Positions 2,370 to 9,823 of a stretch of 64,000 bases of DNA are shown here, piece after piece. The notes beneath the pieces are model-generated. The model had not been told where the DNA came from. It did not search any database and was given only the letters and a program-made list of their open reading frames with translations. A program made the translations under genes and the position numbers. The stretch is taken from contig NZ_JACHBR010000002.1 of NCBI RefSeq assembly GCF_014200435.1, forward strand, positions 1,247,001 through 1,311,000, given 5' to 3'. The DNA comes from Sphaerisporangium krabiense (GTDB taxonomy: Bacteria; Actinomycetota; Actinomycetes; Streptosporangiales; Streptosporangiaceae). Every line of letters begins with the position of its first letter. The first letter of the stretch is position 1.

Positions 2370-3854
2370 TCACCCGGGCAGGCCGGAGGCCGCGGCCTTC
2401 GCCATGGCGATGACCTGGCCGGCGAGCCCGTCCCCTTGGGCCGCGGGATCGCGCAGGTCGACGAGCGACGCGACCGGCTCCGCCCCGTCCGGGGCACGGT
2501 CGTGGCTGTAGACGAGCAGCCGGTCGGCGTGCTCACGGATCCGGTCCAGCAGCCGGCGCGCCCGGCCGGGTGTCGTCTCCCGCAGCCGGTTGAGGCCGAG
2601 CAGGACGAGCCGGTACGACCGGCCGGGCCGCCACGGCGTCTCGTCGTCGAAGACGTCGCCGACCGTGAAGTTACCGGAGTGGCCGGGCCACAGGTCGCGG
2701 GCGTGGGCGATCCTCTCGGGGGAGAGGTCCACGCCGTACGGCACGAGCGCGGGCGCCGCCTCCTCGCGCAGCAGCCGCAGGAGCGCCCCGTTGCCGCAGC
2801 CGAGGTCGGCGACGTGCGGCTCCGGCACGGCCAGCGCCGCGCGCGCGGCTCTCAGCAGGCGCCGGTGCGCCCGATCCATGGCGGCGCGGCCGGAGAAACC
2901 GTTGTCGGCGTGGTACCAGGCCGGACGGGGGTCGGGCCGCGGGATCGGATTGGCGAGCCCCCGCGCGAAGGCGGCCGCCCGGCCGGCGGGCACCGGCCGC
3001 ACCCGGTAGGGGAAGTGGAGCCCGCTCGCGCCTTCGCCGGGGTACTCGGTGCCCGCGCGCTGGACGACGCGCTTGCCCGTGAAGGCGTCCGTCGTCGTGG
3101 CGATCTTCAGGACGGGCGCGCGTATCTCGGCGATCCCGTGCAGGCTCGACCATTCCACGGGCCACGACAGGATCGCACGGCACCAGCCGGCCTCCTCGGC
3201 GAAACCCACGCGCTCGGCGAGTTCCAGGAGCCGCTCGCCGAGCGCGGCGGTGTCCTCGCAGTCGAACGCGCAGGGCAGGTGGGGCACCGCCCGCACGTCC
3301 ACCCAGCGCCACAGGACGTTGGTGAACACCGGGCCCGACACCCGCAGCGGCCGCGCGTTCTCGCCGTCGGAGCCGCCGGCCATGGCCCACGTCGGGTCGA
3401 GCAGGCGCCGCCGCGCCCACACGGCGTCGAAGAAGGCCCGGCAGCAGGGCGGGTAGCCGAGCAGCGTCCCGATGGCGTCGTGGTCGCCGGCCGTCCAGGC
3501 GGCACTCAGGCGGCGCAGATCGTCCGCGCCGCCGAAGCCGACGCGCAGCGTCGCGGGGCCGTCGCCGGCCCGTGCCGGGGTTCGCGCCGCGTAGCCGGGG
3601 GCTCCCGCGCCTTCCCGGGCGAGGACGGCGGCGCCGACGCCGAGCGCCTCCCAGCGCAGGAAGTGCCGGGGCATCTCGTCCTGCGGCACGCGCAGCACCG
3701 CGCACGGCCGGATCCCCGCCGCGACCGACAGCCACTGCACCTCGCGCCACGCGGCCGAGACGCGCCGCAGCCTCGGCTCCCACACCGCGCGGGCCCGGTC
3801 GTCCACCCACGTGACCCGGGTGAACTCCGGGAGCTCAAACGGCAGGCGTCGCAT
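2370..3854 (-). CDS. Two-domain protein: Cys-rich DUF483-like domain fused to a SAM methyltransferase
   Basis: 494 residues. The N-terminal part (about 1-300) carries GYPPCCRAFF (133-142) and HLPCAFDC (192-199), cysteine motifs that recall the DUF483 family. The C-terminal part (about 320-494) is a Rossmann methyltransferase with motif I VADLGCGNG (348-356) and an acidic GVDLSPERI at the end of strand 2. The ATG at 3854 overlaps the end of the radical SAM gene by 20 bases and has GGAGG close upstream, so the two are translationally coupled. I infer a second tailoring step, probably methylation, on the same substrate as the radical SAM enzyme. The family assignment of the N-terminal domain is from memory of its CC/CxxxC motifs and needs a profile search. 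Confidence 0.7.
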   Translation of the reverse strand: MRRLPFELPEFTRVTWVDDRARAVWEPRLRRVSAAWREVQWLSVAAGIRPCAVLRVPQDEMPRHFLRWEALGVGAAVLAREGAGAPGYAARTPARAGDGPATLRVGFGGADDLRRLSAAWTAGDHDAIGTLLGYPPCCRAFFDAVWARRRLLDPTWAMAGGSDGENARPLRVSGPVFTNVLWRWVDVRAVPHLPCAFDCEDTAALGERLLELAERVGFAEEAGWCRAILSWPVEWSSLHGIAEIRAPVLKIATTTDAFTGKRVVQRAGTEYPGEGASGLHFPYRVRPVPAGRAAAFARGLANPIPRPDPRPAWYHADNGFSGRAAMDRAHRRLLRAARAALAVPEPHVADLGCGNGALLRLLREEAAPALVPYGVDLSPERIAHARDLWPGHSGNFTVGDVFDDETPWRPGRSYRLVLLGLNRLRETTPGRARRLLDRIREHADRLLVYSHDRAPDGAEPVASLVDLRDPAAQGDGLAGQVIAMAKAAASGLPG

Positions 3855-5064: not shown

Positions 5065-5592
5065 TCAGGCTTCCGTGTCCGTGGTCCCGCGCTGCTCGAT
5101 GACGCGGCCCTGCCGGGCCACGATCTCCTCGAGGACGGTCAGCCGCTCCTCGAACCTGCTCGCCAGCTGCAGGGCCCAGTGCAGTACGTTGCGCTGCTCG
5201 TTGATCAGAACGTTCCACGGCCGCCCCGGCAGGGTCGTGATGTCGCCGTGCAGGACGTCGCCGCCGTCGGCGTGGTCCCAGTGCGGCATGTCGCCGTGCA
5301 GGTCGTAATGGCCGTCGTGGAACGCGTCGTTGTGGCCGACGTCCCAGTGCGGCACGTCGGCGTGCGATGTGCCTTCGGCCTGCCCGTCCCTGATCAGCTC
5401 GCCGACCGTGTCGCTCAGTTCCACCTGGCCGAAGGTCAGCCGCAGCGCCTGCGCGTAGCGCGCGGCGAGCTCTTCGTACGACCGGGGGGCGGCGGCCGGC
5501 GCGGGTTCCGGGTCGTCGGTGTGAGGGGAATTGCCGGAATCGTCGGAGGCTTCGGATATCTCATGATTTTCAGGGCGCTCTTCGTGCGTCAT
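5065..5592 (-). CDS. His/Asp-repeat protein, candidate substrate of the radical SAM enzyme
   Basis: 175 residues, unlike any family I know. Residues 1-35 are acidic and Pro-rich. Residues 38-70 look helical (SYEELAARYAQALRLTFG) and could be a leader. Residues 77-117 are a His/Asp/Trp-rich core with eight H-x-D tripeptides (HAD, HWD, HND, HYD, HGD, HWD, HAD, HGD), the first three spaced exactly five residues apart, plus a FHD. Residues 126-168 form a second probable helix or coiled coil. The ATG at 5592 has GGGAG seven bases upstream. First gene of the set, and without signal peptide or membrane segment. It could be a RiPP-like precursor, a scaffold whose side chains are cross-linked, or a metal-binding protein; I favour modification by the adjacent enzyme. 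Confidence 0.7.
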   Translation of the reverse strand: MTHEERPENHEISEASDDSGNSPHTDDPEPAPAAAPRSYEELAARYAQALRLTFGQVELSDTVGELIRDGQAEGTSHADVPHWDVGHNDAFHDGHYDLHGDMPHWDHADGGDVLHGDITTLPGRPWNVLINEQRNVLHWALQLASRFEERLTVLEEIVARQGRVIEQRGTTDTEA

Positions 5593-5824
5593 CGGCCATC
5601 TCCCGGCGCCTGTTCGCTGTTTCCTTGGAAAATCCTCTCCTCGATCGTTCAGGTGTTCAAGGCCCGGCCGAGGTGAATTCAGCGGATTTCTCCGATATCG
5701 GCAGCCGGGAAATACCGTTTACGGTCCCATGATCGAATTCGCCGGTCCGTCGCGCGCCGGGGGCCGCCCGGGTCAGGACCCGCCGTCCCGTCCAGGCGTC
5801 CCCGTCGGGGGCGGCGCCGCGCAC

Positions 5825-5868
5825 ATAGTTGACATCAACTAGTCGGTAGCTGATAGTTGATGTCAACT
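5825..5868. promoter_or_regulatory. Tandem palindromic operators between padR and the radical SAM set
   Basis: Two near-identical palindromes, TAGTTGA-CA-TCAACTA (5825-5840) and TAGTTGA-TG-TCAACTA (5853-5868), lie 28 bp apart centre to centre, just upstream of the PadR start. The centres differ only as reverse complements of each other. Autoregulation by the PadR protein is the simplest reading; the sites could also control the divergent radical SAM transcript. Confidence 0.75.
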
Positions 5869-5882
5869 AAGAGCGCGGAGGT

Positions 5883-6482
5883 GTGGTGGAGAAGCGGCGC
5901 AAGGTGTCCAACCCGTTGGCGCTGGCGGCGATGGCGTGGCTGGTGCGGGGGCCGATGCATCCCTATGAGCTGGGGCGGCGGCTGCAGGAGACCGGGATGG
6001 ATCGCAGCATCAAGTACAACCGGGGGTCGCTCTACATGGTGGTGGAGCAGCTCAGGAAGGCGGGGTTCGTCGTCGAGCAGGAGACGGTGCGCGAAGGGCA
6101 GCGGCCCGAGCGGACGGTCTACGCGCTCACCGACCAGGGGCGCGCGGAGCTCTACGACTGGATGCGCGAGCTGGTGGCGGAGCCGCGGCACGAGTACCCC
6201 TACTTCGGCGTCGCGCTGTCGCTGCTCAGCGTCCTCGACCCGGGGGAGGCCGCCGAACTGCTCGGCCGGCGGCTGGAGACGCTGACCGCCGAGGTGGAGG
6301 AGACCCGGGCGGGCATGCAGGCCCTTCTCGACGGCGGCCTGCTGTGGATCTTCCAGATAGAGGAGAAGTACCGCCTCACGGTGCTGGAGGCCGAGCAGCG
6401 CTTCGTCACCGAACTGATCGACTCTCTCAGGCGGCCCGGCCACGCCGAGGCGTGGCAAGAGCTATTCAGGAGCGACACATGA
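5883..6482 (+). CDS. PadR-family transcriptional regulator
   Basis: 199 residues. The N-terminal winged helix (about 10-90) shows the PadR pattern PMHPYELGRRLQ, then SLYMVVEQLRKAGFV and ERTVYALTDQGRAEL. The C-terminal half is the helical dimerisation arm seen in Vir-type PadR proteins. GTG at 5883 or at 5886 could be the start; GGAG at 5877-5880 suits the second slightly better. The stop overlaps the ATG of the monooxygenase gene (ATGA), so the pair is an operon. The tandem palindromes directly upstream suggest that it represses itself and this operon, with a small aromatic or lipophilic ligand as the likely inducer. Confidence 0.9.
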   Translation: MVEKRRKVSNPLALAAMAWLVRGPMHPYELGRRLQETGMDRSIKYNRGSLYMVVEQLRKAGFVVEQETVREGQRPERTVYALTDQGRAELYDWMRELVAEPRHEYPYFGVALSLLSVLDPGEAAELLGRRLETLTAEVEETRAGMQALLDGGLLWIFQIEEKYRLTVLEAEQRFVTELIDSLRRPGHAEAWQELFRSDT

Positions 6483-7691: not shown

Positions 7692-8699
7692 TCAGAAGGT
7701 GAGGGTCCAGCCTTCGCGCCGGGCCTGGTCGCCGGTGTAGGCCACGCCGTGGACCTTCAGCCCTGCCGGGTCCAGCAAGGTGATCGCGCCGCCGCCGTTG
7801 CCGAGCTGCAGCTCCGGGCCCGCCGGCAGGGTCAGGAACGCGCCCGCGGCCAGCGGCCCCGGCGGGAGCGGCCGCAGGCGCTTGGCGCGGTCGCTCAGGT
7901 TCCACCCGGTCAGGTCGACGGGGCCGGCGGAGGCGTTGAGCACGGTGACCGTCTCGTTCTCCGGCGCGGGACCCACCGGGTTGACCAGCGCGGCCACGAT
8001 CCGCACCGGCTCCTCCCCGCCGGCCGGACGGCCGGGGGCGGTGACGAGAGTGTGGCCGCTGACGTCGTCGGTGTGCCAGGCCTGCGACTGGAACGCCAGG
8101 AAGATCGCGATCCACCGGGGATCGCCGGGCAGGTGGATCAGCAGCCCGCCGTCCTGCCACACCCCGTCGTCCTGGTGGAACCGGCCGCTGTTGCCCTGGT
8201 TCATGTGGACGTCGTGCACGCCGTTGCCGGGCAGGAACCCGAAGACCTTGTCCCGGGTGGACGGCTCGGGGCCCCAGCGCTCGCCGAAGACGTACACCGA
8301 CGCCCCCGGGTCGCCGATCGCCCGCCGCACGTAGTGGTCGAGCTTGTCGCCGAGGTCGTTGTCGTCCCCGGTGACCTCGGGCGGCAGCGGGCGCATCAGC
8401 GCGGGGTCGAACAGGTTGCCGCGGATGAAGTCCAGTGCCGCGCCGCCGGGCCCGGAGGCGAGCGGCGTCCACCCCGTGCCCGGGGCGGGCAGGGCCTGGA
8501 GGAGCGGATGGGCGAAGTCCTCGACGGCCAGGTACAGCAGCTCGGACGGCGCCTGCTGCGACAGCACGTTCACCGCCGCGCGGTAGGCCGTCCCCGCCTG
8601 GTCGGCCAGGTGGATCTGGTAGTGCGGGGTGTCACCCCCGCCCTCACGCCGCCGCGCGACCGCGCGCGCGGCCAGCACCCCGTACGAGCGCAGTGGCAT
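7692..8699 (-). CDS. DUF2278 (YukJ-like) protein with C-terminal lamin-tail domain
   Basis: About 335 residues. The N-terminal part from MPLRSYGVLAARAV through VHDVHMNQGNSG has the DUF2278 (YukJ) pattern, a family of unknown biochemical function. The last 100 residues (VNPVGPAPENETVTVLNAS, then VDLTGWNLSD) are a lamin-tail-type Ig fold, often associated with nucleases or surface proteins. I chose the ATG at 8699 because GGGAGG lies six bases upstream and DUF2278 proteins start with MPL-type sequences; the frame stays open to 8837. No signal peptide is visible. The neighbours give no clue to its role. Confidence 0.75.
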   Translation of the reverse strand: MPLRSYGVLAARAVARRREGGGDTPHYQIHLADQAGTAYRAAVNVLSQQAPSELLYLAVEDFAHPLLQALPAPGTGWTPLASGPGGAALDFIRGNLFDPALMRPLPPEVTGDDNDLGDKLDHYVRRAIGDPGASVYVFGERWGPEPSTRDKVFGFLPGNGVHDVHMNQGNSGRFHQDDGVWQDGGLLIHLPGDPRWIAIFLAFQSQAWHTDDVSGHTLVTAPGRPAGGEEPVRIVAALVNPVGPAPENETVTVLNASAGPVDLTGWNLSDRAKRLRPLPPGPLAAGAFLTLPAGPELQLGNGGGAITLLDPAGLKVHGVAYTGDQARREGWTLTF

Positions 8700-8902
8700 G
8701 ACCGACCTCCCGTGGAGCGGATCCGGCACGACGGCGTCCGGCGCCGGGGCGCGGCCGCTGACGCAAACCTGCTCCAGGAAGCGCCTGTTGTCCATCACCC
8801 GGGCCCGTGCGACGTCCGAATTTCCTGGGCGTTCCATGGTTGTCAGGACATGGTTAGCCTGAGGGAAAGACTCTCCCGTGACTCCCGCCCCGAGGAGTTC
8901 AG

Positions 8903-9151
8903 ATGCGCAGAGCGATCGTCGTCATCGGTATGGCCGCATGCGCGGTCACGGCCGTGCTCCCGGTGAGCGCGCGGGCCGCCGCCGCGCCTGTGCCCTCCGG
9001 GGCCGCCGTCGACCCCCCTGGCGACTGGCCCTGCTACCGGCAGGGGCAGATCGTCTACTTCGGCGGCCTCCCGTGGCGGGCCAGGCGCGACATCTGTGGT
9101 CCGGGTTTCGACCCGGCCAGCGTGCCCGCGCTCTGGGAGCCCGCCTGGTAG
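8903..9151 (+). CDS. Small secreted protein with one cysteine pair
   Basis: 82 residues with a clear signal peptide (MRRAIVVIGMAACAVTAVLPVSARA). The mature part of roughly 55 residues contains two cysteines, in WPCYRQG and DICGPG, and ends in a Trp-rich ALWEPAW. The order of aromatic residues (IVYFGGLPWRAR, then WEPAW) resembles small chitin/carbohydrate-binding modules of the CBM5/12 type. That likeness is weak and there is no catalytic domain. GAGGAG precedes the ATG. It stands alone between convergent and divergent neighbours. Confidence 0.65.
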   Translation: MRRAIVVIGMAACAVTAVLPVSARAAAAPVPSGAAVDPPGDWPCYRQGQIVYFGGLPWRARRDICGPGFDPASVPALWEPAW

Positions 9152-9190
9152 AGGCGCGCGCCTGAGCGAGGGCGGCTCGCGGGCGGCGGG

Positions 9191-9823
9191 TCAGCCGGCG
9201 CCGGGGACGGTGACGGGCTGCTCCTTGAACTCGAAGCCGCGCTTGGCGGCGTCCTGTTGCAGGCTGTCGATGGAGTTCTTGCTGCCGGCCAGGTCGGCCT
9301 CGGTGGCGGTGCCGCCCTTCAGCTTGTCGGTGAGGCTCTGGAACTTGCCGGTCACGCCTTCGACCGCCTTGCACAGCGTGGGGTTGGCCTGGGCGAAGCG
9401 CTTGGCGACCTTCAGCTCGTGCAGGGCGAACGCGCCGGCGACCGCCGCCTTGACGAACGTGCGCTTGCGCTTCTCCGCGCCCTCCTTGAACCCGCCGGCG
9501 CGCAGCGGCTTGTAGATGTACCGGTGGAAGGCGCCGAGGGCGAGGCCCGCGTGCAGCGCGAAGCGGGTCTTGGCGAACCTGCGGGTGTTGCCCTCGGTCG
9601 GGCACGCGCCGGTGTACTCGCCGTCGTCCGTCGCCGTGGGCGCCGCCGCGGCCGGGCTCGTGGCCACCACGGCGCCCGGCGGCGTGGTGGTGGCGGACCT
9701 GCCGCCGCAGCCGCCGACCAGGGCGGCCGACACCGCCGCCGACAGGGCCAGCGCGACCACCGTGCTCCGCGCCCGGCGCGGCACCGCCCCCGGGCGCACG
9801 CCGCCCTCGCTCTCCGCAGCCAT
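9191..9823 (-). CDS. Putative lipoprotein of unknown function
   Basis: 210 residues. A basic N-terminus and the hydrophobic stretch VVALALSAAVSAALVGGC end in a lipobox-like VGGC, so I expect membrane anchoring on the outer face. A Thr/Ala/Pro linker follows. The rest is a basic helical region (RRFAKTRFALHAGLALGAFHRYIYKPL, then AVAGAFALHELKVAKRFAQ) with two further cysteines. The pattern resembles other actinobacterial conserved lipoproteins of unknown role. The ATG at 9823 is preceded by a G-rich ribosome site. Confidence 0.7.
   Translation of the reverse strand: MAAESEGGVRPGAVPRRARSTVVALALSAAVSAALVGGCGGRSATTTPPGAVVATSPAAAAPTATDDGEYTGACPTEGNTRRFAKTRFALHAGLALGAFHRYIYKPLRAGGFKEGAEKRKRTFVKAAVAGAFALHELKVAKRFAQANPTLCKAVEGVTGKFQSLTDKLKGGTATEADLAGSKNSIDSLQQDAAKRGFEFKEQPVTVPGAG

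Follow-up and report, generated by a model that had tools for sequence, protein, structure and literature searches.

Repeated H-x-D tripeptides characterise a small protein encoded immediately before a radical SAM/SPASM enzyme in Sphaerisporangium krabiense. The window, by which we mean the whole 64,000-nucleotide stretch of DNA that was analysed, contains one member of a widespread linked system, which is common to many phyla and phages. We propose that the array protein is the substrate of the enzyme and that three-residue cyclophanes are formed repeatedly along the array; the cross-linking is inferred, and this full explanation was given a probability of roughly 0.7. That the array protein is the substrate of the neighbouring enzyme is held with high confidence. 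The product is probably an aromatic-to-Asp/Asn cyclophane; no covalent bond has been shown, and there is no mass or NMR evidence.

The array protein and its operon

The array protein is encoded on the minus strand at 5065–5592, where the open reading frame has both an ATG start and a stop and specifies 175 residues; the plus strand of this interval holds an unrelated open frame. A total of nine H-x-D units were identified, namely HTD at residue 24, HAD at 77, HWD at 82, HND at 87, HYD at 95, HGD at 99, HWD at 104, HAD at 107 and HGD at 115. The array proper, residues 77–117 (5242–5364, minus strand), contains eight H-x-D units and one F-x-D unit (FHD). The initial annotation had listed these eight units, two occurrences of PHWD and a five-residue spacing of the first three units, all of which the minus-strand translation confirmed, but it had overlooked the ninth unit at residue 24. 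Composition-preserving shuffles of the whole protein gave a mean of 1.26 units and a maximum of 7, and none of 100,000 reached nine. For residues 77–118 only, the eight units observed compared with a shuffle mean of 2.09 and a maximum of 7 (0/100,000). Asp was found at position +2 of 9 of the 13 His residues, and every other offset from −6 to +6 gave at most 5.

No NCBIfam or Pfam family was recognised in the array protein (best E 0.14 and 0.19), and its own 8.53-Mb genome contained a single match. An export signal was not evident. The C-terminus looked helical by eye in the window and in two chromosomal relatives (L006 and L008), and in the window it appeared coiled-coil-like, with no prediction run. 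Whole-protein homology was tried and set aside: 3 of 394 genomes of the class matched at E 0.001, own genome included, and the two non-self matches were weak (2.0e-5 and 7.7e-4), one at a locus without an ORF of at least four H-x-D units and the other in an H-rich frame. The earlier expectation of conserved flanking helices around a varying number of H-x-D units was not borne out, as none of the 27 further loci gathered through the enzyme gave a tblastn match to the whole protein (E 0.001); the triplets were the sole shared feature. A search of plasmid records for relatives gave no match at E 1e-20.

The operon consists of three co-directional genes. The array gene is followed, after a gap of 36 bp, by the radical SAM/SPASM gene (P0003; 3835–5028, minus strand; 397 aa; Pfam Radical_SAM, 42 bits), the proposed cyclophane-forming maturase, which overlaps the third gene (P0004; 2370–3854, 494 aa) by 20 bp. 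Residues 1–300 of the third gene product form a DUF483-like domain (2955–3854, minus strand) in a region without a Pfam match (E 1), and its C-terminus is a SAM-dependent methyltransferase domain (2370–2867, minus strand; Pfam Methyltransf_25, 33 bits). The three-gene set with radical SAM/SPASM and methyltransferase genes described in the initial annotation holds, with the correction that the methyltransferase gene starts with the DUF483-like domain; it is this domain that is the constant partner of the enzyme, the methyltransferase being optional.

Alignment of 28 enzyme rows showed that C12, C16 and C19 were invariant, together with C241, C246, C266, C300, C303, C309, C313 and C329. Assignment to the triceptide systems was assessed by several criteria. 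The presence of a radical SAM domain with SPASM-type auxiliary cluster cysteines was met, as was a linked substrate with aromatic-x-residue triplets, in the window and its relatives. A match to a curated triceptide subfamily was not: P0003 fell far below the cut-offs of all NCBIfam families among the matches listed, the best being AmcB (71.4 of 425 bits), with YhhB at 58.6/445, GrrM/OscB at 47.1/310, FxsB at 42/370 and XyeB at 38.8/450. Families of other reactions (sulfatase maturase, DynA, PapB) were also among its NCBIfam matches. The HxsB/HxsC pair criterion was not met either, as the operon holds one radical SAM gene, and neither family was among the best 25 of 63 NCBIfam matches of P0003, which places them at best below 29 bits. 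In the predicted structure of a fused relative (L009), the enzyme half was nearest to anSME and ChlB, with a TM-score of 0.73 by target length for ChlB (PDB 9gm3); by profile among PDB sequences, ChlB came next after anSME (54 bits).

All 27 chromosomal relatives have, immediately following the enzyme, a relative of the DUF483-like domain covering 285–300 N-terminal residues; this count includes L004, where the contig end cuts it to 28 aa, and L017, where the match is weak. Enzyme and domain form one ORF in 10 of the 27, with the methyltransferase fused too in L020, and the P0004 alignment reached the methyltransferase domain in 8 of the 27. A profile of the domain was searched in 27 genomes, including that of the window and leaving out those of two loci. 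Each had one copy beside the enzyme, and further matches were weak and found in two genomes; weak matches away from the cassette were seen in the SAR324 genome (G827:C62:65871-66461 and 73816-74142). The DUF483 (PF04467) gathering score of 25 bits was not met. Relatives scored 15.6–20.8 bits in 4 of 8 proteins scanned, 5 of which contain the domain, and the window protein gave no match at E 1. The AF2 model of the domain had a mean pLDDT of 90, and Foldseek returned no match to it in the PDB at E 0.001, although a relative may be missing from the list. The best VIA-align Z score, 6.7 over 104 residues (2guk), is weak and uninformative on function.

Seven neighbours in the window were scanned, among which there was no transporter and no clear protease; one was a PF00144 beta-lactamase-family hydrolase. 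At 5817–5878, immediately before a divergent gene for a PadR-family regulator (5883–6482) and more than 200 bp from the cassette start, a 25-bp inverted repeat contains two 17-bp palindrome-like copies (ATAGTTGACATCAACTA). The inverted repeat is probably the operator of this regulator.

Linkage of arrays and enzyme in chromosomes and phages

The enzyme was rare in the genome sets searched, with the centre genome counted each time: 1 of 396 genomes of the phylum, 2 of 120 relatives, 1 of 250 and 2 of 242 in two other classes, and 4 of 31 in one order. A contig scan with the enzyme collected 27 loci whose enzymes were 52–63% identical. Their titles name Actinobacteria, Acidobacteria, Chloroflexi, Proteobacteria, Cyanobacteria, Bacillota, Armatimonadota, Planctomycetota, SAR324, Bacteroidota (Flavobacteriales) and a deltaproteobacterium. 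Since 25 of the 27 carry a MAG or uncultured label, some may be misbinned. For the linkage counts, an array was defined as at least 5 H-x-D units per 60 aa. The 29 chromosomal loci counted include the window, longer versions of two loci (L047 and L048) and the separately found L046; L001 (the window again) was dropped beforehand, as were L009 and L028, for which the longer L048 and L047 stand in.

An H-x-D ORF was found near the enzyme in 26 of these 29 loci, on the same strand in 25 and on the opposite strand in L010. A 27th, L047, carries Y-x-D/H-x-D units instead. No array was found in the sequence at hand for L048 (9.8 kb upstream; the contig stops 1.07 kb past the enzyme match), and the cyanobacterial L046 has enzyme and partner with no H-x-D array within ~9 kb on either side. 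Two neighbours in L046 (8223–8816 and 11123–11938) contain THDQ/THDA-type repeats rather than H-x-D.

The substrate ORFs vary in size from about 70 to 1,400 aa. Those of the Acidobacteria (L012–L015) are small, about 70–110 aa, and in six loci (L011, L017, L018, L020, L023 and L024) the arrays are the tails of proteins of ~900–1,400 aa. A twin-arginine-like motif (loose pattern) was present in 8 of 10 chromosomal array proteins checked. In chromosomes, the array often sits in an export-signalled protein or at the tail of a large one. Pfam searches of some chromosomal-cassette neighbours revealed no general phage, injection-system or toxin context. In L011 (Cohnella faecalis), a protein with a delta-endotoxin N-terminal-like domain (8044–9330) follows the fused enzyme; for the array protein of ~1,390 aa upstream, Pfam gave nothing clear beyond a weak ribosomal S11 match. 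In L022, a second radical SAM gene (7786–9114) lies directly downstream of the cassette.

Phage and other viral sequences displayed the same association. A profile scan of IMG/VR identified 52 contigs with the enzyme (37–58% identity) and 8 with unrelated radical SAM genes. A same-strand H-x-D array was present in 41 of the 52, and a 42nd (L070) has an array of F-x-N repeats; in the 8 contigs with unrelated radical SAM genes, which served as controls, at most 2 H-x-D units per 60 aa were seen. A P0004 relative accompanied the enzyme in 48 of the 52 and was present in 0 of the 8 controls. The 11 viral contigs without an H-x-D array comprise L070, L051 and nine that are poor in upstream sequence (L056, L059, L062, L071, L082, L093, L096, L098 and L100, with only 0–3,453 bp upstream of the enzyme match). 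L051, which has no array on its 8-kb contig, is a sister of phage phiLo, whose arrays sit ~4.4 kb downstream on the other strand. Since the 52 contain near-copies, the 47 loci with a near-full enzyme were clustered at 90% identity, leaving out rows with 300 or fewer matched residues. This gave 36 clusters, 35 of which had an array, counting the F-x-N array of L070; the exception was L051.

The array of L070 (2896–3942) consists mostly of F-x-N units (SFSNTPFGNTP...) and accompanies an enzyme of the same family. On another viral contig, L091 (5249–12619), two array genes occur with two enzyme genes, and F-S-N and H-S-D units are mixed. Many viral array proteins open with a repeated PGSxWVEG-type segment, as judged by eye. 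PHROGs searches with 8 viral array proteins gave no family for 5 and unknown-function families for 3.

Three Thermus phages with Thermus thermophilus HB8 as recorded host (phiMa, phiLo and Cumys) carry the cassette, and all three have arrays, those of phiLo being on the opposite strand. Cumys_13 contains 54 H-x-D units and phiMa_29 contains 53; phiLo has two arrays of 72 and 101 units, the latter in phiLo_136. In Cumys, baseplate and tail collar fibre genes are followed by one hypothetical gene, the array gene, an 'rSAM protein' and a 'DUF483-domain protein'. The layout in phiMa is similar, with the genes annotated as hypothetical. No tail context could be shown for phiLo, because its array genes are annotated as hypothetical. 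Of 6 contigs whose genes upstream of the array were tested against PHROGs, 3 have tail fibre, host specificity or tape measure assignments there, and another has a virion structural protein.

In a tree of 78 enzymes, the 29 chromosomal rows formed one side of a well-supported branch (100/97). The split may be exaggerated, as the chromosomal rows were collected mainly with the window protein and the viral rows with an alignment. By our own count, the C-terminus of 34 of the 48 viral enzymes that could be read carries at least 3 H-x-D units, as does that of 4 of the 29 chromosomal enzymes (L002, L003, L004 and L007). The 14 viral enzymes without such a tail make up one tree branch, and the window's enzyme has none either, which makes the tail dispensable. 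This suggests, by inference, a non-essential tail for self-modification or docking.

The association was then approached from the arrays. A nucleotide pattern encoding four H-x-D units, which took no account of the enzyme, matched at least 120 viral stretches; these are a sample. ORFs with at least 8 units per 60 aa among the listed stretches comprised 41 varied arrays and 17 monotonous repeats. Among the matches listed, the enzyme was present in the fetched stretch for 32 of the 41 varied arrays, 1 of the 17 monotonous repeats and 0 of the 62 below that density. Searching the whole records of 20 stretches added the enzyme for three more varied arrays (L194, L118 and L212), giving 35 of 41 among the matches listed; the whole records of ten monotonous-repeat controls contained no enzyme. 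The six varied arrays remaining without it, again among the matches listed, were L137, L166 and L188, which come from records of 36–78 kb and resemble the array of L194; L198, a 10-kb record; and L143 and L210, which are doubtful as arrays. Homologues found widely without a radical SAM neighbour would, according to the initial annotation, have refuted its proposal. No such pattern emerged, as arrays and enzyme family were linked in both directions.

Some individual records deserve separate description. In L166 (925–2013), a collagen-like GPPGPP stretch precedes the varied H-x-D array, and the 64-kb record contains no enzyme of the family; in L194, whose array is similar, the enzyme lies elsewhere in the record. 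The arrays of L157, L177, L180, L213, L224, L227 and L128 occur with a divergent enzyme scoring ~160–275 bits, compared with 400–600 for most others. These enzymes perhaps represent further subfamilies.

The triplet rule and competing explanations

Residue preferences were analysed in 63 dereplicated arrays, 10 of 73 having been dropped as near-copies. Asp or Asn occupied position +2 of 1,702 of 1,753 His residues (1,648 Asp, 54 Asn), and Glu occurred there three times. The middle residue was broad, with Pro (1), Arg (1), Lys (5) and Cys (6) rare among the 1,648. The height of the +2 peak was helped by selection, because the arrays were chosen partly by the motif; the near-absence of Glu at +2 and of a middle Pro is no selection effect. 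Across 19 pairs of related arrays, identity was 95% at position 1 and 93% at position 3, compared with 65% at x and 62% in the linkers. Changes at position 1 stayed aromatic in 13 of 20 cases, and 23 of 29 changes at position 3 were D/N swaps. This conservation is somewhat inflated, because the alignment scoring rewards H and D matches.

These preferences bear directly on how the arrays are to be read. His and Asp are good metal ligands, and the arrays could be metal-binding or buffering stretches with the enzyme acting elsewhere, for which the twin-arginine-like motif of the chromosomal array proteins may also speak. A strict +2 register is not expected of metal-binding His-rich proteins, and a metal site should accept Glu and not Phe. 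Glu replaces Asp in only 3 of 1,753 His contexts, His is swapped for Tyr or Phe and Asp for Asn, and varied arrays are tied to the enzyme family in the reverse scan; we regard metal binding as improbable. The D/N preference at +2 and the aromatic and D/N swaps fit three-residue cyclophane chemistry better. Still less credible is a role of the module in DNA modification, the reading that Kolesnik et al. 2024 put forward for the Thermus phages. In its favour, relatives lie near deazapurine DNA-modification genes in some cyanobacteria (PMC11437467, available in part), neighbours that may suit the array-less cyanobacterial L046, and some members do have a methyltransferase domain. In most loci examined, however, the module accompanies arrays (no systematic search for nearby DNA-modification genes was made), and the available part of PMC11437467 calls the third gene a protein of unknown function, with the repeats unmentioned.

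It is also possible, though unlikely, that the array is the substrate but undergoes other chemistry, such as a C-N or C-O bond, Asp beta-hydroxylation, epimerisation or modification of the x residue. Recognition of the triplet is established by the linkage and the +2 rule, but the reaction itself is not, and the enzyme's NCBIfam neighbours include the other-reaction families named above. Against this, an aromatic residue at position 1, D/N at position 3 and a nearly free x constitute the triceptide rule. A side-chain C-N or C-O link is impossible for Phe without prior oxidation, and the F-x-N array of L070 occurs with the same enzyme family. Cyclophane formation on the array remains the preferred reading. 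The original proposal, in which the adjacent cyclophane-type enzyme acts on the array as its substrate, is supported by the two-way linkage and by H/Y/F/W-x-D/N positions that are kept while the rest varies.

Proposed mechanism and relation to known systems

By inference from its conserved CxxxCxxC motif, the enzyme would cleave SAM to a 5'-deoxyadenosyl radical. This radical is presumed to remove a beta-hydrogen from the Asp/Asn of each aromatic-x-Asp/Asn triplet. By analogy with HaaB and YhhB, the beta-carbon would then bond to the ring of the triplet's first residue, a His (or Tyr/Phe), closing a three-residue cyclophane and costing each unit 2 Da. The SPASM clusters may accept the electron. 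Repeated along the array, this step could stiffen an otherwise flexible segment into a row of small rings. Because the enzyme begins almost at C12, its first cluster cysteine, and lacks a separate N-terminal recognition domain, it is probably the DUF483-like domain, whether adjacent or fused, that holds or feeds the array. Methylation would be an optional tailoring step. The modified phage protein is probably a tail fibre or tip, tail-gene context having been seen in some phages. Whether phage tail fibres consist partly of long cyclophane chains, produced by a dedicated radical SAM/DUF483 machine that often cross-links its own tail as well, and the same machine in the chromosomes of many phyla stiffens bacterial surface or secreted proteins, the Sphaerisporangium-like operon included, is evenly balanced.

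If cyclophane chemistry does serve to make structural protein, with tens of rings in one chain, phage tails and bacterial surface proteins would be built on a new principle. The DUF483-like partner would gain a setting, and peptide engineering a set of highly iterative maturases. The proposal can be put to a direct test, since the recorded host of three cassette-bearing phages is Thermus thermophilus HB8. No literature report of the bond or of the arrays was found; subscription papers and preprints were mostly outside the scope of the search, and novelty is not proven.

Triceptide precursors described so far are short peptides carrying few motifs, and proteins of 10–100 units are not known among them. 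The Cumys/phiMa rSAM module of Kolesnik et al. 2024 is the same cassette of rSAM, DUF483 and a third protein; the available part of that paper notes prophage relatives and InterPro fusions, suggests an unknown DNA modification and leaves unexplained the third protein, which is here an array of 53–54 H-x-D units (PMC11437467). The His-Xaa-Ser system (HxsA, HxsB/HxsC; Haft and Basu, as cited in PMC9062424, available in part) likewise combines radical SAM enzymes with a His-x-residue protein, but it has Ser for Asp and two radical SAM enzymes. ChlB/ChlBH (PDB 9gm3) is among the best structural matches of the fused relative, and a title cited in PMC12636437, which calls ChlB a 'multiple cyclophane synthase', implies several rings per substrate. 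Its substrate is, however, a RiPP precursor peptide, and it is fused to a HEXXH hydroxylase rather than a DUF483-like domain (PMC12636437, available in part).

A close parallel is with the triceptide maturases (XncB, OscB/GrrM, MscB, YxdB, HaaB and YhhB), in which a SPASM radical SAM enzyme is likewise found beside its substrate. According to the part of PMC11002830 available, small peptide natural products are the known setting of cyclophane-forming radical SAM enzymes, which act on aromatic-x-(D/N) triplets, with His and Tyr accepted by known members: HaaB and YhhB link His C2 to a C-beta, and YxdB links Tyr C3 to the C-beta of Asp. The His cases named there link to Ala or Arg, unlike the Asp of this array. 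Further differences are a protein substrate bearing up to dozens of units (101 in phiLo_136), phage-borne or often export-signalled; a constant DUF483-like partner; and an enzyme that lies under every curated cut-off among the matches listed. The system works like a triceptide system and differs from it in substrate size, repeat number, the DUF483-like partner and the phage setting.
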